Positions 1 through 26,995 of a stretch of DNA of 27,570 nt are shown here, in pieces. The stretch comes from a virus, in IMG/VR virus record IMGVR_UViG_3300020222_000142, positions 1 to 27,570 of that record. The stretch is one strand, 5' to 3'. The first letter of the stretch is position 1, and each line of letters starts with the position of its first letter. The position numbers were made by a program, and so were the translations under genes. The notes beneath the pieces were generated by a model. It saw only the letters and a list, made by a program, of their open reading frames with translations. It made no database searches and was not told where the DNA came from.

Positions 1-1799
1 TTAATTGTGACGGTACAGGAAATTCTTGTAAAAAAAGAATCAGTAGAAAATCCACGTTCTGCATGAGACTTCAAAGAAAGATTATCCAATCTAAATTTTT
101 TAATGTTTACAGGAACAATTACGATAGTACCAACATAATCGTTTAAAAAATACAATTCGTTAAAATCTTTTTTAGTAAATCTTTTAAAATTAGTTCCTAT
201 TGGTAAAACATATTGATGTAAAATTAATCCTTTATCCACCGAATAATTTTTTTCTACTATCGCAGATGAAGTGTTGTAGGAGCCAGTAAAATAAAATAAT
301 AGCTTACTTTCTAAAGATGCAGAGATTTTTTCAATTTCTAAATTAGCCGAGAATAAATAATCAGCATTTTTATATAATTTTATAAAATTAGAATCATATG
401 ATGATCCTGTTTGAATTAAAAATGATGCATCGTCATAGTCTATATATGATGAAGAATGTTCATTTTTAGTTTTCAAAGACGTGTCATTTTTTATGATGAT
501 GTATCTAGATTGGTCAAGATTCAAATCTTTTATATTACACACAAGAGAATTTAAAACTTCAACCGAACTGTGTGACAGTGATAAATCTGAAGAACTTGTA
601 TAATAATATCTATTTATGTGGTCTAAATTATAAAATTCTCCTATATTTGAATAAAATCGGTTGATCGTGGAGGTATCGGCTATAAATTCTTTTTCCAACA
701 ACGGTTCATCCGCAATACATTCAAAATCAGAGGCTTTATTTAAACTTCGTCTATAAATTTTGTGACGATGAACTTTTCCTGTAAGAGTTTTTAAATTTTT
801 ATAAGTTACATCTAAAAATGATTCTTTTAAAAATTTAGTTTCACCTTCTATTTGTTGATTTAAAAAAACAGTCGGAGCAGGAGTTCCATCTCCACTTCCT
901 GTAAGACCCGATGAAGTGATATATATATTCGAAAAGAATTTATGATTAAAAGACGCGGAAATAATTGGCACAACTTGATTAACGGTGTTTATTTTATATA
1001 TAAATGGTCTATCTAATTGCAATTCAAAATTATTTATTACGTTTTTTACATTAAAAGACTCTGTGATATTTAACGAAGCTGTTTTTAATACATTATTATC
1101 TAAATAAGCTATTTCTTTTATATTAAGAATTATTTCATTATTTATATTATCTTTAGAAAATAAGTTTAAAAAATTCACAGAAGAAGTATCTATATAACGT
1201 AATCGATAATCGGAATCAAATTTAGTAAAATCTATAGATTTAATATCTGAATATGCTTTTGGAAAATTACTATAACAATATATATTTCCTGAAATTTCAT
1301 TAATAAATTGTTGCTGTTGAGAGATATTTTGATTTAAAATAAATGACAAAAATTCAGAAATCTCAATTTTTGGATCCTGGAAAAACACTACTCTAGAAGA
1401 GTTTTCTAATTTAGAGTTTATTTTTATATTTGTAGACCATCGAACTGACTTCCCATCTACCGTTGTTCCAAGTAATGTTACTGTGCCAAACCCAATAGGC
1501 GTAGATTCATATACATGTACGCCAACGATCAAATCTGTAGTATCTAAATATTTGAAATAACCACTTTTTGCAGTTTCATAATATAAAACGTTATTTTCAG
1601 AGTCGACAATTTCTAATAATATTGCCGCGTTAGGTTTTAATTTATTCGAACCATTTATAGTAAAAAAGTTTTTTCCTGATGTCAATGTATAACCCAAGTC
1701 CGACACAATAAAATAGTCGGATCTATAAGATTTGTCGATGATATCCACATCACGACTTAATAAATTGTATACTGTTCCCTTTTTGTTACCACCATGCAT
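1..1799 (-). CDS. Large virion-type protein, N-terminal 599 codons (partial)
   Basis: An uninterrupted reading frame runs on the minus strand from an ATG at 1799 to the window edge, so the C-terminus is missing. The start reads MHGGNKKGTVYN and lies in the AT-rich TATG context used by other genes here, 29 bases after the stop of the SbcC/SbcD fusion gene. The sequence is rich in Ser, Thr, Asn, Tyr and beta-prone stretches. An early segment (about residues 60-115, with ILLEIVDSENNV and VHVYESTPIGFGTVTLLG) resembles Ig-like or sheet-rich phage structural domains. There is no signal peptide or membrane segment. I do not recognise the family. A structural role is inferred from composition, size and the surrounding tail genes. 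An ATG at 1795 is in another frame and closes after twelve codons. Confidence 0.75.
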   Translation of the reverse strand, partial: MHGGNKKGTVYNLLSRDVDIIDKSYRSDYFIVSDLGYTLTSGKNFFTINGSNKLKPNAAILLEIVDSENNVLYYETAKSGYFKYLDTTDLIVGVHVYESTPIGFGTVTLLGTTVDGKSVRWSTNIKINSKLENSSRVVFFQDPKIEISEFLSFILNQNISQQQQFINEISGNIYCYSNFPKAYSDIKSIDFTKFDSDYRLRYIDTSSVNFLNLFSKDNINNEIILNIKEIAYLDNNVLKTASLNITESFNVKNVINNFELQLDRPFIYKINTVNQVVPIISASFNHKFFSNIYITSSGLTGSGDGTPAPTVFLNQQIEGETKFLKESFLDVTYKNLKTLTGKVHRHKIYRRSLNKASDFECIADEPLLEKEFIADTSTINRFYSNIGEFYNLDHINRYYYTSSSDLSLSHSSVEVLNSLVCNIKDLNLDQSRYIIIKNDTSLKTKNEHSSSYIDYDDASFLIQTGSSYDSNFIKLYKNADYLFSANLEIEKISASLESKLLFYFTGSYNTSSAIVEKNYSVDKGLILHQYVLPIGTNFKRFTKKDFNELYFLNDYVGTIVIVPVNIKKFRLDNLSLKSHAERGFSTDSFFTRISCTVTI

Positions 1800-6825: not shown

Positions 6826-9800
6826 TTAAATATCAAAACGTATTATAAAATTTAAAGGAAATTTTCCTTCGTTTTTTATAGGCGTCCCTAACTTTACCAC
6901 GCCAATCAAATCTAAGTTATTATATAATCCTATAGTGGTAATATATGGAGATAAAAATGACTGTGTAGTAAAATTTGAACTTGTAACATATCGACGATGA
7001 AATACATCTTTGATTAGATGTTTATGACTTTTGCCAGTAATTGTATCCAAATAGTCCCTAGCCACTGAATATATACTCCGTGAGCTCGTAGATTTACTAG
7101 TAGTGAACATTTCATAGTTATCAGCGGTCAAAGTATCTGCGAAATATTTCCACAGTATAGTTAAATCCATATTATCAGTCAAACCATCTTGGTTTATATC
7201 CAAAGTGCTATCTAAATTATTAACAATATAATTATATTCTTCGGTAGTAAGTATAGAATCTGTTAAATTATACAAAGTTTCGTTCTTTATTGATTGTGTT
7301 AGATAATATTCAAATTTACTCTTTTCTACAACATTTTCAAACCCAATTGGATATTCCAATTGTAACAAATTCCACCACTGTTCATTTCCGTTGAACTTTT
7401 TATATATACCCCTCAAAATTTTGTCGCAGTCTTGAAAATCAAATTTTCCGTTTTTGTTCAAATCCAATTGAATCAAACTTGGAACATGGGCAGTCGGATT
7501 TGTAGAATAATTAAACTCGCCTGGACTCACCGTACAAATTATTTGTTTTTCATACAAAGAAGTTTTGCTGTTATATGAAATATCATAAACTGGTTCATCG
7601 TTTACATCGTTATTAAACATATTATCAAATACAGACGCCGAATTTGAAAATACCATTTTACCATTTCTATAAAACACATTTCCCACATGATGGTGTGATT
7701 CAAATTCATTTAAATTAAAAATAGAAAAATTTCCATGTAAATTTTCCGCGACGTTTTCTTTATCTTCAACTATTTCAATGATTCTATTCGAGTCGGTCAA
7801 AGCTATGGGAGATCCCACAATCAAGTTTTTTTTATGTATAGAAACATCATGTGCAAAAAAGTTAAACGGATAACCAAATCTTTTTCTAGGTTTAAATTTA
7901 GCATATATATTGTTCCAATTTTCTTCTTGTTTATCATATATATAAAACATTCCCAAATAATCATTTTCGGTAAGATCATCACAATCGACTGATTTAAATA
8001 AAGTATTTTGTACGTAAGAAGATGAAAATTCAGATAAAAACTTGGGACAAGAAATTAAAAGTTTGTCTTCGGAGATGTCTACCGAATGACCAAATCTATT
8101 AAACTTAAACGAATCTACATCACCAAATAATTTTGTCTCTTTCCAACCCAACTCATTAACTGAACAGGTCGACGGAGTATTATATAAAAAAGTTTCTAAA
8201 AACGAACTATCAAAATCACCGTTACGAGTGATTCTAACTACTCGATTACAATTTTTTCCATTATACTTAGAAAAATCTCCGACAAGAACCATTTTACCAT
8301 CACTTTGAAAATCAAGATCAAGAATGATTGCGTTTGTTGATTCGCCAGGATTAAAACTAGTATCAAGATCACCATTGTTGTGTAGTCGCGCGATCTTATT
8401 AATTGATATGCCGTTGAATGTGGTGAAGGAGCCAATAATCATAATTTTACCGGAGGATGGAACAGTAAAAATTTTATGAATATCTTGACCAGCACCTATT
8501 CCTGACCCGACGAAAGAAGTGTCAAACGTGCCGTTTTCATTAAGTCGAAATATTCCTCTTTTGGAATAGTTAACCCCATCGATACTAACAGAAGTGAAAC
8601 TTCCTCCGACAAGTATTTTATTATCGATTTGTCCGACTATTGTGTTTACTATGCCTCCTTTACATTTTGCCGTAAAAGTTTGGTCGAGGGTGCCGTCCGA
8701 GTTGAGCCGAACGATATGGTCCGTCGTTACATTGTCGTAAAACGGTAAATGACCTCCGACAAGTATTTTATTGTTTGATAACGGAAGAATAGCACTAATT
8801 GCCGGGGCGGGGACAGGCCGACGCTGCGCAGGCCTAAATGGTCCTGAACCTGTATGTGAAAATGTAGGGTCAATTTCACCCGTGGTGCCGTTTATTCTAG
8901 ATATGTAATTGCTTCCTGTAGTAGTGTTGTTGATGACTGACGGCACGGTGCTTTGGCTAAAGTCGTTCCCTCCCCACGCCACCACGGTGCCATCCGACTT
9001 CAAGGCCACGGTGTGACGCTCACCCCCCGCGATGGCCACCACGCCGCTCAGTCCGTCGGGCACGGTGGTTTGGCCAGCGTAGTTGGCTCCCCACGCCACC
9101 ACGGTGCCATTCGATTTCAAGGCCACGGTGTGCTCCTCACCCGCCGCGATGGCCACCACGCCGCTCAGGCCGGCGGGCACGGTGGTTTGGCCAGAGCCCC
9201 ACGCCACCACGGTGCCATCCAACTTCAAGGCCACGGTGTTATACAAACCCCCCGCGATGGCCACCACGTCGCTCAAAATCTGGCCGTTCAATGTGACCGG
9301 ATTTGCCGTCGCGGTGTAAGGAGCGGCGGTTGTTGGTGTGCCGGTAGTTTGGCCAAAGTAGTTGTTTCCCCACGCCACCACGGTGCCATCCGACTTCAAG
9401 GCCACGGTGTGATTCTCACCCGCCGCGATGGCCACCACGCCGCTCAGGTTGAAGGGCACGGTGGTTTGGCCATAGTCGTTGCTTCCCCACGCCACCACGG
9501 TGCCATCCGACTTCAAGGCCACGGTGTGAGAATTACCCGCCGCGATGGCCACCACGCCGCTCAGGCCGGCGGGCACGGTGCGTTGGTCCACGTTGTTACT
9601 TCCCCACGCCACCACGGTGCCATCCGACTTCAAGGCCACGGTGTGAGCCCAACCCGCCGCGATGGCCACCACGTTTCTCAAAACCTGGCCGCTCAATGTG
9701 ACCGGATTTCCCGTCTCGATGTGAGGCGGGGCGGTTGTTGGTGTGCCGGTGGTTTGGCCCTCGTTGTTTAATCCCCACGCCGCTACGGTGTTATCTCGTT

Positions 9801-11424
9801 TTATAACCACGGTGTGATAAAAACCTGCTGTGATTTCTTTCACACCTCTAGTAAAATTTCCACTAATTAAAATCTTATTGTCAGCGGTAACCGCGACACA
9901 GCTCAAACCGTTACCGTCAGCTATAACAGACTCGACATTATTAAAAAACGTATTATCATCGTTATCGGTGCTACCGTCGCTAGAATTAAACCGACCCAAA
10001 CGAGGATGTATACCTCTTGTAATTATTTTACTACCGGTTTTAATCAGGTCGCGCACGGTGCTACCGAAAAGTGAAGCGGTTAAAGATGTAAGTTCGCCGT
10101 CTTTAGAAAGTTTTACCAGTCGATTACGAAAGTTAGATTCATCATTATAATATATGAATTCTCCACCAATAAATATCGAATCATCTGGCTGAACAAGAAC
10201 GGCTCTCGCACTATGACCCACATTTGGAAAATGAAATAACCCCTTAACTATATTTGATCCGACAATAGTAGATTCGCACTTTCCGCTTGGCAATATACAA
10301 TTTTTTGAATTGTAAACATATACACAACCATCTCGATAACAATTTGAACCACTAAATTCTTTATAAATTCTGTCGTATGGCGCACCAACCGCGACCGCCA
10401 CATCTGTAGAAGAAGAACAGTAAATAGATACTGAATTGCCATATCCGTCAGGAAGAGCAATTACAGGATCGTGTTGTGGTACGGGTAAAATTTTTAGATT
10501 TTCGACGGTTTTATTAGATGTAAATTCTTGAATTAACTCCCATTTATCTGTGGTTAATACATATTCATATAAATAAGCTTTTGAATTATTATCGATAATA
10601 CTTCCATTTCCTACTATCAACTTATTAAAGTTTTTGTCTAATTTCAAACAAGAACCAAACAAGTTTTGTCCGCTAGAAGTAATGTAACTATGATAGGTAT
10701 ATTCGTCCGAGTCACGTTTAAATATAAAAACCGACCCACTATTCTTTGTATAAGGACTTCCCACCACAAGAAAATCTTTATTGATAGATACTGACCATCC
10801 AAATGAATTTGATCCTGTATCTATAGATGTAAAATTTAAAAACGACGAATTGATAGGAGCAAATATAGTTTGAGTCTTTGATTTTTCTTTTGAAAGATCG
10901 TGAATTTCTATGCAACCTTCTTCGTTTCTAATTACTTCATCCATGTTTAAAAACGTATAAGTCATTCTAGTACAACCTATCGCACATAAATTTTCATATA
11001 TATCTAAACTTCTACCAAAGTCAGATGATAATGTAAACATGTCTTCTGAGTTTGCTAATAAAAATTCATAGTTGTTAAATATGGCAACAGATCCAGAATT
11101 AGAACCTGAAGTGTTCGTTTCTGTCGATAACGAATAACTTCCCGATAGTGACGCAATAGAGTTTGAGCTTGTGGTATAATTTTCTGTATATAACGCATAA
11201 TAATCTTCTTTCAAAGAAGATAATTTTATTGTTCTATCATATATAAAAGTTGAACTAGTATTAGAATTATATTTATACACATCCACCGAACCCTCTTCTA
11301 AAATTGGATTTGCAGATGAACTGTTAAAAGACTCAAAAGATGGATTTCCTATTAAAGCGTATACGTCGCTTATAGCTACCGAATAACCAAAATCTTTTTT
11401 ATCTATGTAAATATTTTTATGCAT
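6826..11424 (-). CDS. Giant nested beta-propeller protein (FG-GAP, delta-60, RCC1) with dockerin-like loops
   Basis: About 1532 residues, numbered from ATG 11424. ATG 11430 and GTG 11436 are possible alternatives; 11424 has the usual TATATG context and overlaps the upstream stop by 8 bases. FG-GAP-like blades (FGxSVxI..LxVGxP..GxVxIF) lie at about 10-52, 133-177, 205-239, 253-290 and 325-373, then at 1108-1168 and 1187-1239. Between them sit seven delta-60 repeats (404-526 and 839-1079); the third is split by seven RCC1 repeats (about 527-831, IAAGxxHTVALKSDGTVVAWG type). The C-terminal module has GNVFYRNGKMVF (about 1247), EFNYSTNPT (1303) and TTIGLYNN (1496), and is interrupted by two calcium-loop motifs (D1321-x-N-x-N-G...D1332; D1409-x-N-x-D-G...D1420). 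It is probably a virion appendage or adhesin. No signal peptide or catalytic motif was seen. Confidence 0.85.
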   Translation of the reverse strand: MHKNIYIDKKDFGYSVAISDVYALIGNPSFESFNSSSANPILEEGSVDVYKYNSNTSSTFIYDRTIKLSSLKEDYYALYTENYTTSSNSIASLSGSYSLSTETNTSGSNSGSVAIFNNYEFLLANSEDMFTLSSDFGRSLDIYENLCAIGCTRMTYTFLNMDEVIRNEEGCIEIHDLSKEKSKTQTIFAPINSSFLNFTSIDTGSNSFGWSVSINKDFLVVGSPYTKNSGSVFIFKRDSDEYTYHSYITSSGQNLFGSCLKLDKNFNKLIVGNGSIIDNNSKAYLYEYVLTTDKWELIQEFTSNKTVENLKILPVPQHDPVIALPDGYGNSVSIYCSSSTDVAVAVGAPYDRIYKEFSGSNCYRDGCVYVYNSKNCILPSGKCESTIVGSNIVKGLFHFPNVGHSARAVLVQPDDSIFIGGEFIYYNDESNFRNRLVKLSKDGELTSLTASLFGSTVRDLIKTGSKIITRGIHPRLGRFNSSDGSTDNDDNTFFNNVESVIADGNGLSCVAVTADNKILISGNFTRGVKEITAGFYHTVVIKRDNTVAAWGLNNEGQTTGTPTTAPPHIETGNPVTLSGQVLRNVVAIAAGWAHTVALKSDGTVVAWGSNNVDQRTVPAGLSGVVAIAAGNSHTVALKSDGTVVAWGSNDYGQTTVPFNLSGVVAIAAGENHTVALKSDGTVVAWGNNYFGQTTGTPTTAAPYTATANPVTLNGQILSDVVAIAGGLYNTVALKLDGTVVAWGSGQTTVPAGLSGVVAIAAGEEHTVALKSNGTVVAWGANYAGQTTVPDGLSGVVAIAGGERHTVALKSDGTVVAWGGNDFSQSTVPSVINNTTTGSNYISRINGTTGEIDPTFSHTGSGPFRPAQRRPVPAPAISAILPLSNNKILVGGHLPFYDNVTTDHIVRLNSDGTLDQTFTAKCKGGIVNTIVGQIDNKILVGGSFTSVSIDGVNYSKRGIFRLNENGTFDTSFVGSGIGAGQDIHKIFTVPSSGKIMIIGSFTTFNGISINKIARLHNNGDLDTSFNPGESTNAIILDLDFQSDGKMVLVGDFSKYNGKNCNRVVRITRNGDFDSSFLETFLYNTPSTCSVNELGWKETKLFGDVDSFKFNRFGHSVDISEDKLLISCPKFLSEFSSSYVQNTLFKSVDCDDLTENDYLGMFYIYDKQEENWNNIYAKFKPRKRFGYPFNFFAHDVSIHKKNLIVGSPIALTDSNRIIEIVEDKENVAENLHGNFSIFNLNEFESHHHVGNVFYRNGKMVFSNSASVFDNMFNNDVNDEPVYDISYNSKTSLYEKQIICTVSPGEFNYSTNPTAHVPSLIQLDLNKNGKFDFQDCDKILRGIYKKFNGNEQWWNLLQLEYPIGFENVVEKSKFEYYLTQSIKNETLYNLTDSILTTEEYNYIVNNLDSTLDINQDGLTDNMDLTILWKYFADTLTADNYEMFTTSKSTSSRSIYSVARDYLDTITGKSHKHLIKDVFHRRYVTSSNFTTQSFLSPYITTIGLYNNLDLIGVVKLGTPIKNEGKFPLNFIIRFDI
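8972..9815 (-). repeat. GC-rich RCC1 repeat array inside the nested propeller gene
   Basis: Seven copies of a block beginning CCCCACGCCACCACGGTGCC on the plus strand start at 8972, 9089, 9197, 9368, 9485, 9602 and a diverged one at 9773. Spacings are 117, 108, 171, 117, 117 and 171 bases, which is a three-unit super-repeat present twice (396 and 405 bp). Each block encodes one RCC1 blade on the minus strand. The line 9001-9060 has 44 of 60 G or C, against 15 of 60 in the line at 7921 in the same gene. The high similarity between copies implies recent duplication or homogenisation. Confidence 0.9.
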
Positions 11425-14400
11425 ATACATTATCACTTGTATTATTCTTTATATATTTAATAAAAAATTGTTCATCATTTATTATGGAATTCATATTAGA
11501 TGACGTTGTATATAAAAATATTTCATTAAAATAAAATTTATCAAATTTAGAATTGGATAAATCAAGTTCATCTATAATTTCATATACGTTAATTTTTTCA
11601 AAATCTATTGCCCAATTGTTATGAACCAAGTTGTCTGTCGCCGAATCAATATATACAGTTAATTTATTCTGAGATTTATTATAATTTAAAAACTTTCCTG
11701 TCATAGTTACATTATAATTTCTAGAACCTGTTTGTCCCATTGAAATGTCACTTGTTAGTTGTGTAATATAAACGGGAACGTTTCTATAACCACCATAATG
11801 TAAATCCGCTAAATTCAAAGATCCTGTATTTAAATAAAATTCCTTGACACCCACTGACATAGAAATGTTATTTATATTTGGTATCTCATTTTCAAAATTA
11901 GATTGTGCTTTATTTGAAGCAATATATGAATATTTTTCTTTATTATTATATTTTTTAGTTAAAATTTCTAATCCTGAAAATAGTCGAGTTCCATGCGGTT
12001 CGTGCGTGGGTAGAATTTTAACGTCATAGTTGGTTAAATTATATTGTTTTGTAGTATTTAAATTTATAGTAAAATTGACGTCGGTAAAAAAATCAAAAGT
12101 TCCTTTCATCACTTTAGGCGAAGTATAATCATTATTATAAATAAATTTTTGATATCTTATATTTGGGTCTAAAAAAGTAAAATTTCTACCCAAACCAATA
12201 CTTTTAAACATGTATTTTGTTACAAAAGGATGTTCACCCCAAGAAAATCCAAATTTAAATGCATGTCCAAATTCAGATTGCAACAGACTAACATCTGTAT
12301 ATTTTTTTATATAAACCGCACTTCTGTCGGCTTTAGCGTCAATCGAAACTCCATCAATTAAACCCTTTGTCGCGACCGACGTTGGCGGAGGAGGATTAGA
12401 CCACGACGAATTAATATTTTGTCCAAACGGTATAAAAGATTGTGAATAATCATTTTTTCCCCACGCCACACACTCACCATTATTTTTTAAAATAATAGTA
12501 TGATCATCTCCACATTGAACATCCGATATGTTGACATTTTCTAAATTTGGAATTTTTGATTGACTGTATGTATCGTTCGCCCCCCAAGAATACAAATTAC
12601 CATCATTATCTAAAATCATTCCATGCGATTTTCCAAATGATATTTTTTTAACATTAGATTTTTGTGGAATTTTTGATGCGGTAAAAAATGAACTTGTTAA
12701 ACTGTTGTGTCCAAATCCATAAATTGATCCGTTTTTATGAATAATCACACTTCCACTTGGACCTGCTTTTATATAAGAGTAATTATTATCGACAAAAGTT
12801 GGTATAGAACCAGTATACAACGAATTTCCCCAAACATAAACTTTACCGTTTTCATCTAAAGCAATCATATGATGATCTCCCGCCGATATATCAATAAGTA
12901 GGCCACCAAAAATTGGAACAGATTTAGACACCTCACTTTCTCCCCAAACAACTAACTGACCGTTTGTTTTTAAAATTGCGGCAAAATTATCTCCACACTC
13001 TATTTTTCTAAAATTACCCAAAAGTTCATCGTGAGGTATTTTAGTTAACGAAACCGACTGCGTAGTTTGAAGCCTTCCGTTGTTATTAAGCCGAGCAATA
13101 TTATTGACACTCTGACCATCATATGTGGAAAACTTTCCGCCTATCATTATTCTACCATCTGACAGTGGTTTGATGGAATCAACAGCTTTAAGCAGCCCCT
13201 CGGCGAGCGGCAACCCGCTCCTAAAGGTAGTGTCGAGCTCACCATCAGAGTTTAGACGAAGGATACTATGTTGTTCTGGTGTGTTATCATATCTATTGAA
13301 AATGCCGCCGAGAAGTATTTTACCGTCCGACTGTAAAGCAACAGAAAATGATCTTGAAGGATAAGCTTCAGTGCCAGTCTGTGTCGGTGGAATGTTAAAG
13401 GTTTCATCACGGCTAACCGTTATGTTCGTCGTCGGCGGTTTAAGTCGTTGAATTCCGTGTGGATTAGAACCGAAACTGCCGGCAATAATTATTTTTTCAT
13501 CTGGTAATAATACCATATCATTAATTCCACCCGCGTGGTTGTAATATCCGAAGTCGTTGTCAAACTCACCGTCTTTTTTGAGTCGTATAAGATACCGATC
13601 GCGGTTAACAGGCCCGCCCGATGATGTAAGAGCAATAAACTCTCCACCGATCAAAATTTTGTCTGTATTATTTCCCGTGGGATAGACAATTACCTTGTTC
13701 AGAATATTCAAGGCTGGAGTAGGTGGATTGGGTTGATTTGTCCAGTAGCCAGAAGATGTAAACGTGGTGTCGATTTCGCCATTTTTATTCAATCTAACTA
13801 TTGAAGGAACGGTGTAACCATTGTAACTGGTGAAACTCCCAACCGCAATGATTTTTTCATCAGACTGTAATGCGATATCAGTCACTACGTTATTAAATCC
13901 AACACCTACACCGTTGAATGTCTCATCAAGCGTACCATTGGAGTTAATTCGAACAATTCCTTGCTTTCCGGAATAAATGAAATTGCCGCCGATAAGAATT
14001 TTGCCTGAATTATTACTGCTCGTCGGATAAATCAAAATAGATGTAACATAGTTATATACGTTACCTCTGAAGGAAAGATTAAGATTGTTGTTGAAGGGTC
14101 CATCCAAAGTACCGTCAATGTTTATTCGAGCGAGAATAGAGCTTGGTGTATTGTTGTAACTGGTGAATCTTCCGCCGATAAGCACTTTGTCATCGGTTTG
14201 TATAGCCATAGCCATAACCGAAGCACTATCAGAGTTTTCGCTGTGTTGTATTCCACCGCCAACGTCAAAACCAGCATCTCCAATATACATTAGATAAGAC
14301 TCTACTTCTTTTGGTTTTATTTTATTTGTAGTATCATATCCATAAATGTAAAAATCGTGTGCGAAGTTTCTATCGACAAAAAGAATATTATTTTTGTAAT

Positions 14401-15406
14401 ATTGCCAATTTAATTCCGTCACAGAATCTTCGTTTAAAAAGAATTCGACCCCATCAAAATTTACACAAGAACAAGAATTAAAATGGTTTATATCTTTATT
14501 TTGATCCGATGTAATTACGCCGAATACTTTTTCTTTTACATGTAAATTGCCTTTGCCATCATCCACTACTGTGTAAGTTTGATCGCTAGAATTTTCTATT
14601 ATTTCCACGCTATTTTCCATTATTTTATCACCAAAATAAGCTTGTGGGATAGTTACTACTTTAATTCTGTCATATATAACTCTTTTTTTTCCGTCCAAAA
14701 TCACGTCTAAATTTTCTAATCCCAATAACTTAGTTGGATCTTTAGAATCGTTATAAAATAAATTTTTAGTCTGATCGTATATTATTCTTTTATATGTATC
14801 ACTCAAATTTTGAACCTCGATGTCTGGATCGAATTTTATAAATTGTTCAGTCTTTATTCCATCTTCTATAGTTAAAAAATTATCTTCCGTTTGTTCTAAA
14901 CAAAGATTACATATAGAATTTGTAAACGGCACATCCATAGCCAAATCAAATCTATACGAAGGTCCGTTGTATGGAGATTTGCTGTTACTTATATCTGCAT
15001 ATGATTCGAGTAACCAATAATCCGAAGATCCCTGCACATGCAAATCCACTTGACCACTACTTGTATCTTCCATTATTATTGAATATGTTGGTTCGGCGAC
15101 CAAAGAAGAAGTGCAACCAAATTGCCAACCATCACCATAATCAAGATATTCTATAGCAAACGGCTTTGTTGAAAGCAAACCAACTGACTGAACCGTATTT
15201 TCAGCAACAAACTTATTTGTAAAAGATTTAGATTCTGATATAAATTTATGAGTTTTAGACTCTGAAACAAAATTGGCGTCAGTAAATAGATACTCGAAAT
15301 CCACATCCCCCAATAAATTTATATTAGATTTGCTTGTGGCTCTCCATCTTTTTGATACAACAAATGGAACTGAATTTATGTCATCTTTATTTAGACTTTT
15401 AATCAT
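11417..15406 (-). CDS. Giant structural protein with tandem delta-60 and RCC1 propellers
   Basis: This has 1329 residues. Residues 1-390 are a sheet-rich region I do not recognise. Residues 396-782 hold seven delta-60 repeats (pattern IALQSDxKIxxGGxFTxYN...IxRLNxDGxLDTTF), enough for one seven-bladed propeller. Residues 798-1000 hold five RCC1-like repeats (for example SAGDHHMIALDENGKVYVWG and QCGDDHTIILKNNGECVAWG), with a possible sixth half-repeat at about 1020. Residues 1045-1329 are an unrecognised C-terminal domain. Unlike the next gene, the two propellers are in series and the RCC1 DNA is AT-rich. The delta-60 DNA (13061-14221) is richer in GC than its flanks. There is no signal peptide or catalytic motif. 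A tail or appendage role is inferred from context and from the related propellers in the adjacent gene. Confidence 0.83.
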   Translation of the reverse strand: MIKSLNKDDINSVPFVVSKRWRATSKSNINLLGDVDFEYLFTDANFVSESKTHKFISESKSFTNKFVAENTVQSVGLLSTKPFAIEYLDYGDGWQFGCTSSLVAEPTYSIIMEDTSSGQVDLHVQGSSDYWLLESYADISNSKSPYNGPSYRFDLAMDVPFTNSICNLCLEQTEDNFLTIEDGIKTEQFIKFDPDIEVQNLSDTYKRIIYDQTKNLFYNDSKDPTKLLGLENLDVILDGKKRVIYDRIKVVTIPQAYFGDKIMENSVEIIENSSDQTYTVVDDGKGNLHVKEKVFGVITSDQNKDINHFNSCSCVNFDGVEFFLNEDSVTELNWQYYKNNILFVDRNFAHDFYIYGYDTTNKIKPKEVESYLMYIGDAGFDVGGGIQHSENSDSASVMAMAIQTDDKVLIGGRFTSYNNTPSSILARINIDGTLDGPFNNNLNLSFRGNVYNYVTSILIYPTSSNNSGKILIGGNFIYSGKQGIVRINSNGTLDETFNGVGVGFNNVVTDIALQSDEKIIAVGSFTSYNGYTVPSIVRLNKNGEIDTTFTSSGYWTNQPNPPTPALNILNKVIVYPTGNNTDKILIGGEFIALTSSGGPVNRDRYLIRLKKDGEFDNDFGYYNHAGGINDMVLLPDEKIIIAGSFGSNPHGIQRLKPPTTNITVSRDETFNIPPTQTGTEAYPSRSFSVALQSDGKILLGGIFNRYDNTPEQHSILRLNSDGELDTTFRSGLPLAEGLLKAVDSIKPLSDGRIMIGGKFSTYDGQSVNNIARLNNNGRLQTTQSVSLTKIPHDELLGNFRKIECGDNFAAILKTNGQLVVWGESEVSKSVPIFGGLLIDISAGDHHMIALDENGKVYVWGNSLYTGSIPTFVDNNYSYIKAGPSGSVIIHKNGSIYGFGHNSLTSSFFTASKIPQKSNVKKISFGKSHGMILDNDGNLYSWGANDTYSQSKIPNLENVNISDVQCGDDHTIILKNNGECVAWGKNDYSQSFIPFGQNINSSWSNPPPPTSVATKGLIDGVSIDAKADRSAVYIKKYTDVSLLQSEFGHAFKFGFSWGEHPFVTKYMFKSIGLGRNFTFLDPNIRYQKFIYNNDYTSPKVMKGTFDFFTDVNFTINLNTTKQYNLTNYDVKILPTHEPHGTRLFSGLEILTKKYNNKEKYSYIASNKAQSNFENEIPNINNISMSVGVKEFYLNTGSLNLADLHYGGYRNVPVYITQLTSDISMGQTGSRNYNVTMTGKFLNYNKSQNKLTVYIDSATDNLVHNNWAIDFEKINVYEIIDELDLSNSKFDKFYFNEIFLYTTSSNMNSIINDEQFFIKYIKNNTSDNVYA

Positions 15407-17213: not shown

Positions 17214-20200
17214 TTACAATCCTCTCCCACCAAATAACACATTTGGTTGAAAATCTTCTGGAATTCTATATTTAGTATATTGTTTTATAGTCGTGGTGGA
17301 ATTTTCATTTATTAATTGAGAGCCGTTTAAGATTATTTCTCCACTCGATATATACAATTTAGCCGTATTAAATCTATTTTTGGTTTCTATGTCTATTACA
17401 GATCCAAGGTATGGCGAAGCAAATCTCGGTAGTTTTCTTAGATTTCCAAACCAAGGTAGAAGTTGTAATCTAGATATTGAAGAGGTGATCGGAGTTCCTA
17501 TCACCGCTTGGCTAGTATCAATTCTAATTATTGGTTCTCGGTTATCGTTTCCAGATTCATTAATTGTTGTAAATCTATTTTGTCTACCTTTACCGAAATA
17601 ACTCGGAGGTAAATCTACGTCAGCAAGACTGCCTGTAACATAATACAGTTCTTTTCTAAGCGATAAATTTTTTCTACTTATATGTGGAAAATTTCGCAGA
17701 TCAGAAAGTATATTATGTGCAGAAGATGTTGTAAACGAACTGCCGCTATTAATTAATTCTACAGAAATAAAATCTTTAGTAACATTTGAAGACGTAATAT
17801 TATCCGAAGAATAAGTCACAGTTTTTTTATTAATTTTACTATATGCAAAATATTTTTTTCCATCTACGTCAGCCAATCCATTATGGTCGACAAATATATT
17901 ATTCATATACAAATCAGGAACATCAGTTATAGATTTGTATCCTTCAAACGAATAATCACCAAACACAAAACTGTTTTTATATAATTTTAAGTCGACAATA
18001 GAATTTGTGAGATAACTAATAGTAGAACTATCTACGTCACCTAAGATATTAGATAATTGAATACTGGCAGTTAAAACGTGTAAATTGGTTATATTGACAG
18101 GTTTTTCTTCAATCCTATTTCTTTCTAAAATTGTAGGTTCTATTAACAGCCCGGTATAAACTTTATTTCTAGCGGGTAATAAGTTTTTAAGAGTATCAAA
18201 AATACTTCCGTCAACATACGTTTTATAAATTGTAAATAATTCGTTAAATAAAATTTTATTTATGTAATTTTCTCCATAATAATATTCTCTTAATTTCTCA
18301 AGCCCTAAATATTTTCTTCCAAAACGTTCTCTTGGATCTGAAATTGAAGAAACAATTTCATAATTTCCAAAAAAATCTAATATAGATTTATTTCGCTCAT
18401 GAATGGGAGATAAAAACACCCCAATTTTATTAGTATCTACATAGTATTCATTCTTATTTTTATAAGTTTGAGATTTCAATGGAGAAAGAGTGCCATCGTA
18501 TGTATATCTCACACTTTTATTTACTTTATCATTTTCGAATCTACTAGGACCTATTTCTGCTGTAAAATATTCGTTCCTAATATTAAATTCACGAGTCTGA
18601 TGCGGAAATATAGAATATGATTCGCTTACACAACTTGACGTATTAAAACGATTGTAATAATTATTTCCCACTACATTATGAACGGCTGCATATATGTTAT
18701 TATAACGTGGATTTACATTATTTACCTTATATCCGTCTTCTAAAAAAGAACCAGAAATAATATCTATCGGAACGCCTAAATTAAATCTAAACAAAATATC
18801 GTCGTAACTCGAAGACGGTTGGCCCTGATAATAAGAATTAAAATTTTTACATTTTGTATAAAAGTTCTCGTCTGAAATCGGGGTTTTTTGTATGGTAATT
18901 TTATCCAAACAACCATAAAACTTACTGAGTGAATATTGTTGCAACTCCGTAAATCTAAAGAAATCATTATAATCAAATTCTGTAACTAAATCGGTTATAT
19001 CACCAACGTTACCAAAACTCTCAGAAATTACCCCTTGTAAAATGGCCTCTCTACTAACGATCGGTATGTTACTAAGTTCTGAAATTAAATCTATTTTTTC
19101 GTTTGGATTTCCAAAAGCCGTAATTGCACCTAAACTATTAAATTTTTCATTATATGATCCTGATAAATAAAAACTAAATTTTTTGTCAATTGGATCGACG
19201 CAAAATTCATTTTGATGTATGACTATATCATACTGAATAGGTAATATATTTTCATCTATAGGATGCTCAAATTTTTTTGAAGCCTCGTTTTTTCTTAATA
19301 AAATGTTCATTACTTCTCCGTTAAACATATAAAATGGAGAGGTTATATACACGACAGGCAAGAAATTTTCGTTTTTTATTATGAAGTATAAACTGCCTAA
19401 CTTCTCGGTAAATTTTATGAACCCTAAAGAGTAAACCGGATCACCGAGATCGTTGAAAGTTCCGTGAATAGGAACAATCAGTCTGTTTAAATTTTTATAT
19501 TTTTCTTTATCAATAAAAAGTTTAAAATCTATAGATTTATAGGGAGTTAAATTTTTAATTTCAACATACTCGTCGTCTCCACCAACAAACTCCAACAAAT
19601 ACTCTTTTTCATCTACCAAATATGAAGAACTTATTTCATTTTTTGTATAACCGCCGCCAAATTCTTTTACCAAAATCATATTATTTGGTATTCCATAAAT
19701 TGAAAATATCTGTCTAAGACATTCTTCAGTTCCTTTAGTTTTGTAAATCGATGGTAAATTATTTAATATTCTTTTCCATATAATTTTAGTTTTTTTATCT
19801 AAAGATATAGAATTTTTTAAATCGGCCTTTTTAAATTTGTCCAAATAACATTCTTCAATCGATGCATTTTCTAATATCCCACTTACATTTGGAGGCGTAT
19901 CAAACCCAAAGCTAGAAAGAATATGATTTATAAAATCGGATGAAATTCCCGTCGAATAATCTTCACCAACTTTTTTATAAATCCCTATGGATGATATGTA
20001 TAAATAAATGTTATCAAAAGTATGTCCTATCATACTTAAAAACTTCAAGTATTCGTCATTATTTTCATTTAGGTAGACATATTCAGGAGTATTATTTATG
20101 AGTGAGTCTCTATTATTTTTATCATAATACGTTGAATCGTTTAATAATTGATCCACGAAATCGGAAGAAGATTTATTTGTTTTAGATTCCGTAAACTTTT

Positions 20201-22157
20201 TTAAAGTCGAATTATATATAAATTTATTTGTATTATAAAGATATGATTCGTATCCATCAAATCCAGAATATATTTCATCGATCTCTTTATTATTGTCTTC
20301 AATTTTTTTATGAACGTTAAATTTATCATTTACGGATGATCCACTGGAATCTAACGATTTCAATTTTTGATTTTCTTCATCCAACAAAGTTTCTTTTATT
20401 ATTTTATTTTGAAATATTTTAATACGTAAATTTGCTGAAGAAAACACCACAAAATTGCTAAAATTTGTATAATCAACATTTATATTTTTAATTTTTTTAT
20501 CCGCGTTAATTTTATTGTTATCAATTCTGTTTAATTTTAACTCGTTATTATTAAAATATTGAGAACCGATAGTTCTAGTTGACGGCTCATTTATGTCTAT
20601 ATTAAAATTTGGCCGAGTCAGTTTTATAGTTGATTTAATCGAATCAGTTTCAAAATTAATTATTTGAAAGAAGGGGGTATATGAATTATTTGAAATTTCA
20701 CAAAAATCTCCTGCGTTATAGTTATCTGGAATAGGATCTTTTAATTTTACTAAAAACTCATCATTTTGAATTTTCGAATTCAAAATAAAAAATAATTCAT
20801 TTTCTTTAAATTTTATTGTATTTTTTAGTGGCGATTTAAATTTTGATAAATATTGTAATTCGATTGAATTTATTACATATGTTAAGAATTCTGACATTAC
20901 AGTTGACACATATCTAAAAGAATCAACATACTGTTGTTTGGATTGTTTTGATATGTTAACATTTGGATTAAAAAATAATAATCTTTTATTACAGGTAAAA
21001 TTATTAATGTTAGAAAAAATTGTTCGTGTATAATCAAATGTATTGATAAATTCGTAATTAAATTTGAGATAATTTATTATATAGTCTTTAATACCTAATA
21101 ATTTTTTTTGTTTTCTTAATGTAGCATCATAATAACTTTCTCCATAATAGATCGAACGTAGTATTCCCATTACACCATCATCGTCGACTAAGGAAAATAA
21201 AAATTTCAAAGAATTTATCTCAGTTTCATAGTTGTCTTTTGTTTTTGAAAAAATCTCTGATAAACTAAATGAATTCAAATAATATTCAAACTCGCTGCAT
21301 AATTTTTTATTTATAAAACTTTTTTGTTCTAACGCTAAAAATTCGGTATTTAATTTAAAAATTTTACTATCAACTTCTCCTTCAAACTGTATAATGGCGT
21401 TATTATCTTTAAAATTTCTATTGTATACAAATAAAGTGTTGGGAATATCTTCCGTAGCGTCTAAAATAATTTGTTTTGTGGATTGTTTATATAATATATT
21501 TTTAACATAATCTGAACCACCACTAAAAAATTTTCCATCTTTAGTTTTACTAAATCTAACTATATTTATATCTTGATTAGTAAAATTTAAGTTATAAACG
21601 GTTCCTTTTTTTATTTTTATCTCTTGATTACCATTAAGCAATATTTGATTACCATTAAACGTAACAGATATATCATTTATCACACTTTCATCTGCGAAGT
21701 TTTTTATGAATTTTATTTCTTTTCTAGAATTACTTATTTCTTTGATGATTAATGGATTTTTTTGAGAAAAAAACGGAGACGTCGGCGTAATCGATAGATA
21801 AAAATTATTATTTGTAACAGACTGTGAATCTATAATATCTTCTATCGAAATCAATATATTTTTGTTTAAATCTTGAATTAAATTTGATTTGATGGGAAAA
21901 TAATAATCCTTAAATATATTTCCATCGACGTCTTCATAATCATAATATACCTTTAAGTTAGATGACGATCCCGTTATTTCTCCTGAAGAAATCAACTGTT
22001 TTTGAGAATCAAAAATGCCCACCGAAATTAAATCCGTGTCTTGTTCTCCAAAGAAGTATTCCCTAGAAGAACTCAGAGATAACAATTCCGAATCTTTTAG
22101 AGATAAAAAACTTATCTGATTGATTTTATCGGATGACTGTGTAATAATACTCAACAT
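17214..22157 (-). CDS. Very large tail/baseplate structural protein with LamG-like segment
   Basis: This has 1647 residues. It lies downstream of the gp25- and gp6-like genes, where T4 has the large wedge gene 7 (1032 residues), so a wedge or tail-periphery role is plausible by position only. Motifs seen: FLSMIGHTFDNIYLYISSIG (about 706-725) and LPSIYKTKGTEECLRQIFSI with YGIP (801-824). The latter resembles a conserved segment of large tail proteins in environmental phages and perhaps the P2 gpI type. A concanavalin/LamG-like segment spans about 855-1100 and ends FYGCLDKITIQKTPISDENF, the usual closing strand pattern. The N-terminal 700 residues are Asn/Lys-rich and unrecognised. There is no signal peptide. 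Confidence 0.78.
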   Translation of the reverse strand: MLSIITQSSDKINQISFLSLKDSELLSLSSSREYFFGEQDTDLISVGIFDSQKQLISSGEITGSSSNLKVYYDYEDVDGNIFKDYYFPIKSNLIQDLNKNILISIEDIIDSQSVTNNNFYLSITPTSPFFSQKNPLIIKEISNSRKEIKFIKNFADESVINDISVTFNGNQILLNGNQEIKIKKGTVYNLNFTNQDINIVRFSKTKDGKFFSGGSDYVKNILYKQSTKQIILDATEDIPNTLFVYNRNFKDNNAIIQFEGEVDSKIFKLNTEFLALEQKSFINKKLCSEFEYYLNSFSLSEIFSKTKDNYETEINSLKFLFSLVDDDGVMGILRSIYYGESYYDATLRKQKKLLGIKDYIINYLKFNYEFINTFDYTRTIFSNINNFTCNKRLLFFNPNVNISKQSKQQYVDSFRYVSTVMSEFLTYVINSIELQYLSKFKSPLKNTIKFKENELFFILNSKIQNDEFLVKLKDPIPDNYNAGDFCEISNNSYTPFFQIINFETDSIKSTIKLTRPNFNIDINEPSTRTIGSQYFNNNELKLNRIDNNKINADKKIKNINVDYTNFSNFVVFSSANLRIKIFQNKIIKETLLDEENQKLKSLDSSGSSVNDKFNVHKKIEDNNKEIDEIYSGFDGYESYLYNTNKFIYNSTLKKFTESKTNKSSSDFVDQLLNDSTYYDKNNRDSLINNTPEYVYLNENNDEYLKFLSMIGHTFDNIYLYISSIGIYKKVGEDYSTGISSDFINHILSSFGFDTPPNVSGILENASIEECYLDKFKKADLKNSISLDKKTKIIWKRILNNLPSIYKTKGTEECLRQIFSIYGIPNNMILVKEFGGGYTKNEISSSYLVDEKEYLLEFVGGDDEYVEIKNLTPYKSIDFKLFIDKEKYKNLNRLIVPIHGTFNDLGDPVYSLGFIKFTEKLGSLYFIIKNENFLPVVYITSPFYMFNGEVMNILLRKNEASKKFEHPIDENILPIQYDIVIHQNEFCVDPIDKKFSFYLSGSYNEKFNSLGAITAFGNPNEKIDLISELSNIPIVSREAILQGVISESFGNVGDITDLVTEFDYNDFFRFTELQQYSLSKFYGCLDKITIQKTPISDENFYTKCKNFNSYYQGQPSSSYDDILFRFNLGVPIDIISGSFLEDGYKVNNVNPRYNNIYAAVHNVVGNNYYNRFNTSSCVSESYSIFPHQTREFNIRNEYFTAEIGPSRFENDKVNKSVRYTYDGTLSPLKSQTYKNKNEYYVDTNKIGVFLSPIHERNKSILDFFGNYEIVSSISDPRERFGRKYLGLEKLREYYYGENYINKILFNELFTIYKTYVDGSIFDTLKNLLPARNKVYTGLLIEPTILERNRIEEKPVNITNLHVLTASIQLSNILGDVDSSTISYLTNSIVDLKLYKNSFVFGDYSFEGYKSITDVPDLYMNNIFVDHNGLADVDGKKYFAYSKINKKTVTYSSDNITSSNVTKDFISVELINSGSSFTTSSAHNILSDLRNFPHISRKNLSLRKELYYVTGSLADVDLPPSYFGKGRQNRFTTINESGNDNREPIIRIDTSQAVIGTPITSSISRLQLLPWFGNLRKLPRFASPYLGSVIDIETKNRFNTAKLYISSGEIILNGSQLINENSTTTIKQYTKYRIPEDFQPNVLFGGRGL

Positions 22158-24327: not shown

Positions 24328-24615
24328 TTAACACGTATGAACATCCTCTATATACATCCCACTGCCAGATACACTTCCAGAAACAAATCCGGATCCTGTA
24401 ATACATCCGTTAATGTATCCATAAAAATTTAAAACAGAAAGTCCTATTCGTTCTCGCGTAGAAGATATTTGTGCTGAAGAGGTATATACAAATGTTCTAA
24501 TAGGTCTATGAACAGATTCAACTTCTAAAATCTCGTCTCGACCAAAATTTTTCAAGATATAATCCCCATCATTCCAAATAAAAAAGTCTGAAGAACAATG
24601 TATAAATTTATGCAT
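24328..24615 (-). CDS. Small Gly/Ser-repeat protein, first of a tandem paralog pair
   Basis: This has 95 residues. The ATG overlaps the stop of the gp6-like gene by one base (TAATG), a classic coupling arrangement. The N-terminus MHKFIHCSSDFFIWNDGDYI and the segment NFGRDEILEVESV align with the next gene. The C-terminal third is a Gly/Ser/Cys repeat (INGCITGSGFVSGSVSGSGM) followed by YIEDVHTC. There is no signal peptide or membrane segment. It is not a family I recognise. A baseplate-associated role is inferred from coupling to gp6. Confidence 0.7.
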   Translation of the reverse strand: MHKFIHCSSDFFIWNDGDYILKNFGRDEILEVESVHRPIRTFVYTSSAQISSTRERIGLSVLNFYGYINGCITGSGFVSGSVSGSGMYIEDVHTC

Positions 24616-26579
24616 TATAATGTCCTTCCCTTGATATCTATGTCTGGATTTTTAATCTCAAAAATAGCAGGATCAATAGGAGGATATATTATTTTATTTT
24701 TAGTGGCGGATTTCAAATCGTATTCACAAATTGAATAACCAGAATCGATTATATTAACAATCTCTATATCTGCCACAGATTGAACTCCTTCTATTTTTGC
24801 AATTTCCAACTCCAACTGATTTATATTTATTGGTTGAGAAATTTGCCACAAATCAATATTAAAAAAATTCTTTATTGCATCGATACAGTTATTTAATACT
24901 TCTTTTTTATTATAATTAGAATATGTTAACAATGTAAAATTTACTCCTATATTAATAATAAACGCGTCGATAATATTAATTCTATCAGATAACATTCTAT
25001 ATCTAGATAGATAATTTCTAAGATTGTATGTCAGTGCTTCATTTGCTACTTCTAAGTTTTTATTTTCATTATATGTTAATACATATAAATTTATAGCATT
25101 CGGATTAACACCATCTAAATTAATTTTTCTAAAATCTTTATTTTTTTCGTCGACAATTATGTTATTATTTTTGTCTATTAATCCTGTAATAAAAGATGTA
25201 TTATTAGTATATAAATCGTTTTCCGTTGTAACATATGCTTTAGCAATTTTTCCATACTCAGGCGACATACTAAAAACTCTAGCAATATAGTCTTCTTTAG
25301 TAACTATTCTATCTTGTGCAGCAAAATTAAAAATGGCATTATTTTTTATTTCTTCTATAGTTTCGGGTCCAGAACCTCCTATAGCAGAAATTGAATTTTC
25401 AACTTTTAAACTATTTTTTATAGTGCCTATTAATGCCGCTTCGGTCGGTAAATATTCATGTAAATCTATAAATTCTATTTTACTTACTTTTGTAATATCG
25501 CCGACGTTTACATTAGATTCTATTCCACCCCCAACAACATATGTTATTTCTAACGTAGTGTTAAACGGCGACAATCCGTATGCATTAGACTTCAAAAAAG
25601 AAGTAGGGTCTAGTGTCAAATTATATTTACTTATATTTGAAAAACCAACTCCTATGTTGTCGGAATTTGGCACCAAAAGTTCTTCTTCTATACTATCTGT
25701 AGATGGACCAAATTGTAAAAACGTTTTATTGTTTTCATCTACATTCACTGTAAATCTTCTATTGGTCCGTAAGAATCTTATAATATTAGGAACGGTAGAT
25801 TTAAACTTTGAAAATTTTTCAAAATCGTATTGGTTATTTTCAACCGATAACGAAATTAAATCCTGAGCCAGATAATCTACTTGATACCACGTATTATTAT
25901 CCGCATCTTTTACATTTAAAATTTTAATAATATTATTCTCAGTGAATTCAATTCTTAAATTTGGTTCGTCAGATCCCACTATAACAGATTTAGTTATTTT
26001 TTTACCACTATAAGCTTGAACAGACTTTTTTAATAAATAAAATTCAGGCTCACCGACATCATTTCTAGAAAATACTTCATCGGTTCTAGGAAAAAGTTCA
26101 CTTTTTAAAGAAAAATTCACCTCGTCGGTTGTTAAAAATGAAACTCCTGTCGAAGAAACAACCTCCATTCCCTCCGAAATACTTACCATGTATCTTTCGT
26201 CGGGCGAAAACTTTCCGTCCAAATTTCTTTTGGCTGGAGCGATCATGTATAAATCTAAAGTAGTAATTGATGGTTTAGATGGTTTTGTAGTATATCCTAA
26301 ATATTTTGCCAAATTTATTACATTCTTTCGTTCTTCTGAAAATTCTATAAGTCCTTCTTTGAACTGATAATCAATATAAAAAGAAAGAACGTCTCCGACA
26401 TATGATGCCATGTCTATAAACATCATTCCAGGAGAAGCTTCACTAAAATCTTTATACGATTTAGGATAATATTGTTTTGCAAAATTTATTAAATTTTGTT
26501 TAATTTGATTAAAATCTCGACCGAGATATTTTACTTCTCTTGCCTGAGGTTTAAAATTTTTATCTAATATAGTTGCCAT
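24615..26579 (-). CDS. Baseplate wedge protein, T4 gp6/J-like
   Basis: This has 654 residues, against 660 for T4 gp6. The N-terminal region has the gp6-type layout: LGRDFNQIKQNLINFAKQYY, then EASPGMMFIDMASYVGDVLS (about 48-67) and YIDYQFKEGLIEFSEERKNV. The middle part has the gpJ-like strand-rich region (FLTTDEVNFSL, FLQFGPSTDS). The C-terminal part includes IVTKEDYIARVFSMSPEYGK, typical of J-family baseplate proteins, and QPININQLELEIAKIEGVQS. Gp6 forms the dimeric ring that holds the wedges together and drives the baseplate change on host contact. Here it follows the gp25-like gene with 2 bases between, as partners in the wedge core often do. Confidence 0.9.
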   Translation of the reverse strand: MATILDKNFKPQAREVKYLGRDFNQIKQNLINFAKQYYPKSYKDFSEASPGMMFIDMASYVGDVLSFYIDYQFKEGLIEFSEERKNVINLAKYLGYTTKPSKPSITTLDLYMIAPAKRNLDGKFSPDERYMVSISEGMEVVSSTGVSFLTTDEVNFSLKSELFPRTDEVFSRNDVGEPEFYLLKKSVQAYSGKKITKSVIVGSDEPNLRIEFTENNIIKILNVKDADNNTWYQVDYLAQDLISLSVENNQYDFEKFSKFKSTVPNIIRFLRTNRRFTVNVDENNKTFLQFGPSTDSIEEELLVPNSDNIGVGFSNISKYNLTLDPTSFLKSNAYGLSPFNTTLEITYVVGGGIESNVNVGDITKVSKIEFIDLHEYLPTEAALIGTIKNSLKVENSISAIGGSGPETIEEIKNNAIFNFAAQDRIVTKEDYIARVFSMSPEYGKIAKAYVTTENDLYTNNTSFITGLIDKNNNIIVDEKNKDFRKINLDGVNPNAINLYVLTYNENKNLEVANEALTYNLRNYLSRYRMLSDRINIIDAFIINIGVNFTLLTYSNYNKKEVLNNCIDAIKNFFNIDLWQISQPININQLELEIAKIEGVQSVADIEIVNIIDSGYSICEYDLKSATKNKIIYPPIDPAIFEIKNPDIDIKGRTL

Positions 26580-26581
26580 AA

Positions 26582-26995
26582 TTAAATTCTATTAGATTGT
26601 AATTCCAACACTAAATTATCCGATTCATTAGTTTTATTTATAATAAAATCTAAAGAAATGTATATTTTATATCCGTCAGTATTTTCCCTATCAGATTTGT
26701 CAGAAATTATAATTTTCTCTATCGTGACCTCTGGTACCCAATATTTTATTTCTTCATTTATTATATTTTTTGTTATTTCGATTGTAGTTTCATCAATTTG
26801 TTCAAATGCTACATCATATAATTTAGTGCCGAATTGAGGAAACATTCGTCTTTCTCCTTTTTTAGTTTTTAAAAAATTTAAAAGATTTTGTTTTACTTGA
26901 CTGTTAGTATCGAACGTTTGTTGAAAATAACCATTATTACCTCTTGTAAAAGGCACTTCTAATCCGATAGGAGAATATGAGGAAGTTATAGTCAT
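26582..26995 (-). CDS. Baseplate wedge protein, T4 gp25-like
   Basis: This has 137 residues, against 132 for T4 gp25. Conserved features include IGLEVPFTRGNNGYFQQTFD near the N-terminus, LLNFLKTKKGERRMFPQFGT (about 38-57; the RRGER...PEFG signature of the gp25/lysozyme-like family) and an EIKYWVPEVTIEKI segment near the C-terminus. Gp25 forms part of the wedge core bundle and links the baseplate to the sheath initiator. Despite the family name it is not an enzyme in T4 phages. The start is directly after the upstream stop (TAA ATG), and the gp6-like gene follows after 2 bases. Confidence 0.9.
   Translation of the reverse strand: MTITSSYSPIGLEVPFTRGNNGYFQQTFDTNSQVKQNLLNFLKTKKGERRMFPQFGTKLYDVAFEQIDETTIEITKNIINEEIKYWVPEVTIEKIIISDKSDRENTDGYKIYISLDFIINKTNESDNLVLELQSNRI

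Follow-up and report, generated by a model that had tools for sequence, protein, structure and literature searches.

Evidence for three nested beta-propellers in a predicted tail or baseplate appendage protein of a phage

The gene and its surroundings

The window, that is, the whole stretch of viral DNA analysed here (27,570 nt), carries on its minus strand a long gene whose product combines repeats of three propeller families. The gene was delimited correctly in a previous sequence-only reading of the window: it starts with ATG at 11424, ends with a stop codon at 6826-6828 and presents one uninterrupted frame of 1532 codons. All three families exceed the curated Pfam cut-offs, namely FG-GAP_2 (2.3e-16), DUF5122, containing the delta-60 repeats (3.3e-48), and RCC1_2 (5.9e-71). 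They are three different Pfam families, and no WD40 repeat reaches its Pfam cut-off. Segments of the protein are listed in Table 1, where strands are named after the usual blade order and the strands of an AlphaFold model. We consider it highly probable that the architecture is a nested one, with RCC1 repeats placed in a loop of the delta-60 propeller and the delta-60 propeller placed in a loop of the FG-GAP propeller.

Table 1. Features of the nested propeller gene and its neighbour (positions in the window)
Feature	Position	Strand	Remarks
Predicted nested propeller protein, whole gene	6826..11424	minus	single open frame, 1532 aa
FG-GAP propeller part 1: blades 1-4 and strands A-C of blade 5	10300..11424	minus	residues 1-375; G+C 0.31
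Delta-60 (DUF5122) propeller part 1: blades 1, 2 and strands A-B of blade 3	9847..10299	minus	residues 376-526; G+C 0.39
Seven RCC1 repeats within delta-60 blade 3	8911..9846	minus	residues 527-838; G+C 0.62, GC3 0.75
Delta-60 propeller part 2: remaining blade 3 and blades 4-7	8167..8910	minus	residues 839-1086; G+C 0.40
FG-GAP propeller part 2: strand D of blade 5 and blades 6, 7	7699..8166	minus	residues 1087-1242; G+C 0.28
C-terminal region: two dockerin-like loops (~1320-1341, ~1407-1428) and conserved final module (1494-1532)	6829..7698	minus	residues 1243-1532
Stretch apparently exchanged between the window phage and its relative L002	8169..10280	minus	no blastn match inside
Neighbouring gene: delta-60 (~392-789) in a linker, then RCC1 (from ~790), as beads	11417..15406	minus	contrast case

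Tail genes lie on one side of the gene, and on the other side are genes whose matches are SbcC/SbcD-like, primase and RuvC-like; matches to baseplate wedge proteins are found at 24615-26995. Judged by this gene order, its product is likely a phage appendage protein. Relatives of the neighbouring genes are present in Flavobacterium phage immuto, whose source is a Baltic Sea mesocosm, and in Microcystis phage Mel-JY01. The positional counterpart in Mel-JY01 has the C-terminal module in common (44% over 50 residues), but a laminin-G domain stands there instead of the propeller. The same holds for another relative, L023. The C-terminal module thus seems to be the more constant part of these proteins and the domain preceding it the variable one. 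By sequence, this module is also common to other genes of the related phages.

Two dockerin-like loops precede the final module (DLNKNGKFDF... and DINQDGLTDN..., window 7141-7467, residues about 1320-1428) and are kept in four aligned homologs. Their matches to dockerins or EF-hands in Pfam and PDB are weak, in the relatives as well, and all of them stay under the cut-off. A PDB sequence search with the C-terminal part gave no convincing match beyond these weak dockerins.

Two further open frames of the window can be mentioned. One of 272 aa on the plus strand (8953-9771) runs antisense to the RCC1 repeats; it is probably a by-product of the G+C-rich repeats and is not counted as a gene. The other (17214-22157) lies among the tail genes and codes for a protein of 1647 aa, which gave no match either in PHROG (E 0.01) or in Pfam (E 1).

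The outer ring: FG-GAP propeller

The sequence-only reading had counted five FG-GAP blades in front of the delta-60 insert and two behind it and had added them up to one seven-bladed propeller. This count is upheld by blade profiles of 12 homologs, by relatives with an uninterrupted propeller and by alignment of both halves as a single ring (see below), with blade 4 being weak by sequence. In a leave-one-blade-out profile test, run after long additional loops had been trimmed in four rows, blades 1, 2, 3, 5 and 6 scored above the 99th percentile of shuffles in 12/12 homologs, blade 7 in 11/12 and blade 4, the weakest one, in 9/12. In a smaller test with four homologs, blade 4 fell within the shuffle range and blade 7 was marginal. 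The delta-60 insert enters the C-D hairpin of blade 5. An extra degenerate blade near residue 110, admitted as possible in the previous reading, is unlikely: the stretch is of variable length, and three of the 12 homologs lack it. A PDB sequence search with the FG-GAP part yielded no convincing match.

The middle ring: delta-60 propeller

Five stretches of DUF5122 (PF17164) were recognised by Pfam in this gene, four of the five places being above the cut-off. Blades were further scored with a blade profile of our own, which gave 39.0 bits for blade 1. The same profile bears out the proposal that blade 3 is interrupted and then resumed behind the RCC1 repeats. Taken alone, the first half of this blade scores 20.3 bits (profile positions 3-19) and the second half 10.1 bits (positions 27-42), while the joined halves reach 30.2 bits. 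This true join ranks first: the best of 116 wrong partners stays 4.3 bits lower (25.9 bits), and the best of 300 shuffles reaches 10.2 bits. The point of RCC1 insertion corresponds to the B-C loop of blade 3.

Of the proposed seven delta-60 blades, six, the rejoined blade 3 included, have profile support, and the models fit single propeller chains. Blade 2 remains at noise level (4.4 bits against 6.0 for the best of 300 shuffles) and is unrecognisable by sequence.

The inner ring: RCC1 repeats

In the window copy, Pfam recognises seven stretches of PF13540, in repeats mostly of 39 aa, in agreement with the claim of exactly seven RCC1 repeats. The claim does not extend to the near-identical relative L001, which has six units, provided that its assembly is taken as right. 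Apart from this, L001 and the window share 99.7-99.9% identity; L001 is shorter by a single RCC1 unit (117 nt), and its junction shows an exact overlap of 49 nt, which fits either unequal recombination or assembly collapse. BLIP-II is a propeller of seven blades. The RCC1 profile matches BLIP-II with 1.6e-55, and by this homology the RCC1 repeats would be expected to close into a ring of their own.

Repeats 2, 3, 4, 6 and 7 share 86-92% mutual identity over 90 nt. This similarity would be expected if one or two blades had been captured and then multiplied on the spot, instead of a ring being captured whole; for other propellers, PMC9218822 describes amplification from single blades, including cases in which proteins that are identical in other respects differ in their number of blades. 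Such an origin is nevertheless improbable for the array as a whole. Repeat 1 (58-68%) and repeat 5 (58-77%) are divergent, the longer loop of repeat 1 is present likewise in repeat 1 of the relative L030, and bacterial RCC1 domains, in a set of the best 80 of at least 548 loci, match across most of the domain.

Structure models and the alternative of tandem domains

Two AlphaFold models were analysed. The first one comprises residues 4-1203 of L001 with its six RCC1 units (the window's own nest is longer than 1200 residues) and is based on an alignment of six rows. The second one comprises the window insert alone and is based on three rows. Their mean pLDDT is 46.6 and 44.2, respectively, with pTM of 0.40-0.44; pLDDT of the RCC1 repeats is only 20-39 and 24-46, too low for a ring to be read from them. 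The structural aligner reports first and last aligned residues only. A Foldseek list, with rmsd mostly >18, was used for its integrin rows only.

Despite the poor quality of the models, both split propellers appear to align as single rings across their inserts: the delta-60 propeller in both models and the FG-GAP propeller in the first one. In the first model, FG-GAP halves match integrin alpha-L (5e6s_E; Z 23.5, rmsd 4.0, 341 residues aligned over the low-confidence model range 6..1200) and the outer parts match 4v6w_Ag (Z 23.8, rmsd 3.4, 283 aligned). Altogether, ranges of about 6..1200 fit single propellers with rmsd of 3.0-4.2. With long low-confidence stretches excluded, the delta-60 part aligns over the model range 400..1026 with 8ova_A7 (Z 23.3, rmsd 2.6, 270 aligned) and, in the first model, with the CylK propeller 7ron (Z 24.4, rmsd 3.6, 324 aligned). 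In the second model it again aligns as a single ring across the RCC1 gap, matching 7ron (Z 20.9) and 8hmc_B (Z 20.4, rmsd 3.1, 271 aligned); RCC1 was kept in for all rows of this model.

Low confidence of the models leaves some room for an arrangement of the domains as beads on a string, or for blade sets intertwined in a different manner. Four of 50 structural-match rows of the L001 model do fit tandem-propeller chains (about 8-208..1026), yet with high rmsd of 12.8-17.8, and in the neighbouring gene (11417-15406) delta-60 and RCC1 domains really stand as beads. In that gene the delta-60 domain is absent in L003, L004 and L030, and we accept a tandem arrangement for it. For the gene at 6826-11424 we reject it: FG-GAP halves are directly joined in relatives with an empty site, the joined delta-60 blade 3 outscores every wrong partner, and the split parts fit single rings as described above. 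No beads-on-a-string outcome, named beforehand by the sequence-only reading as speaking against nesting, was seen here, and we regard it as very improbable.

Empty, filled and swapped sites in relatives

Thirty loci related to the gene were collected. After removal of 16 identical ones, the remaining 14 and the window make up 15 distinct copies; L023, having only the C-terminal part in common, is not included. Neither insert is found in 10 of the 15 copies. FG-GAP_2 is above the cut-off in all ten of them, and DUF5122 or RCC1 is detected at E 0.01 in none. The FG-GAP propeller is uninterrupted at the blade 5 site in these ten copies and in L030, so that homologs devoid of the inner domains at the same point do exist for this site. 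In L003 and L004, which are 71% and 57% identical to the window in the N-terminal part, the sequence is continuous from GCVY[IV] to W[KR]ETKLFGD with about 15 residues between, L003 reading CVYIYDLIKCQIDDTTSSFWKETKLFGD.

A delta-60 domain occupies the blade 5 site in four of the 15 copies: the window, L001, L002 and L007. L002 and L007 are truncated by contig ends, L007 beginning within RCC1. As the window, L001 and L007 represent nearly one phage, the complete nest has been seen in one lineage only. L030 has a different constitution. Its blade 5 is intact and delta-60 is absent, while seven RCC1 repeats are situated in the B-C loop of FG-GAP blade 7.

The last type of variation is a swap. L002 and the window share 98.2% identity along 7145 nt, ending at window position 10280. 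From there down to 8169 no blastn match exists, and then identity of 100% follows over 127 nt up to the end of the L002 contig. The edges of the swap lie about 20 nt or less from the delta-60 boundaries (10299 and 8167). Within them L002 contains a different delta-60 domain, with 32% amino acid identity over 254 aligned residues. Such a difference between near-identical phages points to exchange of the cassette by recombination, and we find it quite probable that the insert is an exchangeable module. Between delta-60 blades 3 and 4, the L002 cassette has about 130 additional residues (L002:7717-8140), near the place taken by RCC1 in the window; no Pfam match was found for this stretch.

Every copy is an assembled contig and RCC1 repeats are easily misjoined, which raises the question of a chimera arisen in metagenome assembly. 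We reject this explanation as scarcely credible: L001, a separate 103-kb contig, repeats all four junctions in frame, L007 repeats the last two of them, and L030 carries a different RCC1 insertion, in frame as well.

Smaller additions were noticed in four of the ten copies that have neither insert. L128, L129 and L130 have stretches of some tens of residues added between FG-GAP blades 2 and 3, and L136 has one of similar size in the B-C loop of blade 7. In L125, L126 and L127 the propeller gene is preceded by an in-frame segment resembling, by eye, the N-terminal region of the neighbouring gene; it gave no RCC1 match. When the outer parts and the insert-free L128 and L125 were compared with 50,697 phage records by tblastn (E 1e-5), none matched, records very near the window being possibly omitted from this set.

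Base composition and origin of the inserts

Base composition changes in steps along the nest. From the outer layer inwards and out again, G+C content is 0.309, 0.386, 0.621, 0.395 and 0.284, and GC3 is 0.22, 0.30, 0.75, 0.32 and 0.22. The RCC1 repeats of L030 have a similarly high G+C content of 0.595. RCC1 repeats of the neighbouring gene have GC3 of 0.21, and the RCC1 family as such is therefore compatible with low GC3. Because its composition is foreign to the surrounding layers, RCC1 would be the last insertion.

For RCC1 of both the window and L030, the best nucleotide matches (among the best 80 of at least 548 bacterial loci) fall on two loci within a single Verrucomicrobiales genome (G+C content 0.64). 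A tree was calculated from 32 RCC1 rows, comprising 30 of the best 80 of at least 548 bacterial loci, the window and L030. It leaves 22 of 29 inner branches open, and the window and L030 appear as sisters in 3% of 200 bootstrap trees. The two arrays may come from one or two captures, a single origin being among the possibilities.

Taken together, empty sites, the second site in L030, the swap in L002, nested steps in G+C content and single-ring models agree with the recursive insertion put forward in the sequence-only reading.

A proposed role of the nest

We propose, with a probability of roughly 60%, that the protein presents an exchangeable, recursively inserted propeller module on a tail or baseplate appendage, probably serving in adsorption; both location and function are deduced indirectly. 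The gene product would most likely be a tail or baseplate appendage protein, whose constant part would be composed of the seven-bladed integrin-like FG-GAP propeller, the two dockerin-like loops and the C-terminal module. Certain loops of the FG-GAP propeller would accept whole extra propellers, and recombination within the flanking gene would exchange the cassettes. In a propeller, C-D loops lie on one face and B-C loops on the opposite one. For this reason, delta-60 is expected to emerge from one face of the FG-GAP ring, with RCC1 standing on the opposite face type of delta-60. Propellers stacked in this way could protrude from the virion and offer binding surfaces open to exchange, and a swap of the cassette would alter adhesion of the particle with the anchored outer domain unchanged. 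We give even chances to an adsorption or receptor-binding role as such.

The inserts might also be mere passengers: foreign domains tolerated in the loops of a robust propeller, near-neutral and short-lived, with no role in binding. Composition of RCC1, far from that of the remaining gene, makes its insertion look recent, both inserts are missing in most copies, and the number of RCC1 units varies between almost identical ones. On the other hand, an open frame of about 2.1 kb is retained, L002 retains a different delta-60 domain and an extra stretch at the same site, RCC1 is found in another loop of the same protein in L030, and the neighbouring gene too has a delta-60 domain absent in relatives. 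We therefore regard passengers as rather unlikely and prefer exchangeable modules with a function in binding.

A broader view of the same reading can be offered tentatively. Loops of propellers may serve as landing sites for further propellers, whose loops serve in turn, so that adsorption proteins could grow and be re-equipped recursively. The process may still be ongoing in this phage group, with vacant, singly filled, doubly filled and swapped sites side by side, and RCC1 rings from G+C-rich bacteria may have entered at least two loops. With the vacant site, the lone insertion at another place and the swapped cassette seen in relatives, the two-level nest of three propeller families offers a rare direct view of how a large multi-domain protein is assembled. 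It also makes a general question amenable to testing, namely which loops of closed rings take up entire folded domains and whether phage binding is altered by this.

Relation to known propeller proteins

Proteins with several propeller rings, inserted domains of integrins, RCC1-type proteins of phages, modular tail proteins and the exchange of binding domains in phage tails are already known. Unusual here are the depth of the nest and its good documentation by the protein's own relatives, in which no insert, a different insert or an insert placed elsewhere suggests that rings are added and exchanged as modules. A search of mainly open literature, covering titles and abstract starts on nested or inserted propellers, phage propellers, RCC1 with delta-60, DUF5122, FG-GAP and DDB1, brought no description of a three-family nest.

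Integrin alpha-L has an inserted domain between its blades. The nest resembles integrin alpha chains (PF14312; 5e6s, 3v4p) in its seven FG-GAP blades, and the models match integrins alpha-L and alpha-4, but its insert is itself a propeller, holding a further propeller. Delta-60 propellers (DUF5122, PF17164) are represented by repeats above the Pfam cut-off, and the ring is best matched by the propeller of CylK; unlike in other propellers of this kind, blade 3 is divided by RCC1 repeats. With RCC1 and BLIP-II proteins (PF13540, PF00415; 1jtd, 3qhy) the nest shares seven repeats, mostly of 39 aa, and its RCC1 profile matches BLIP-II. It differs from them in that its RCC1 part lies inside another propeller, contains several almost identical blades and has a composition unlike that of the remaining gene.

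In proteins of the DDB1 type, one propeller is inserted among others. DDB1 is a eukaryotic adaptor built from one WD40-like family, with no cassette exchange, whereas the nest combines three families, one inside another. The likeness consists in three seven-bladed propellers per chain, as described for DDB1-type proteins in PMC3271066 and PMC7281272. Modular receptor-binding proteins of phage tails and of eCIS, in the fibres of which propeller lectins are described (PMC12923769), likewise join a constant anchor to variable binding domains. In the nest, however, the variable part sits within loops of the constant domain, two levels deep, and receptor binding is putative. As to RCC1 in phages, eleven RCC1-like proteins of unknown role are mentioned for the jumbo coliphage phAPEC6 in PMC7247149, and the insert finds matches in 16 of the 50,697 phage records, mostly via RCC1.
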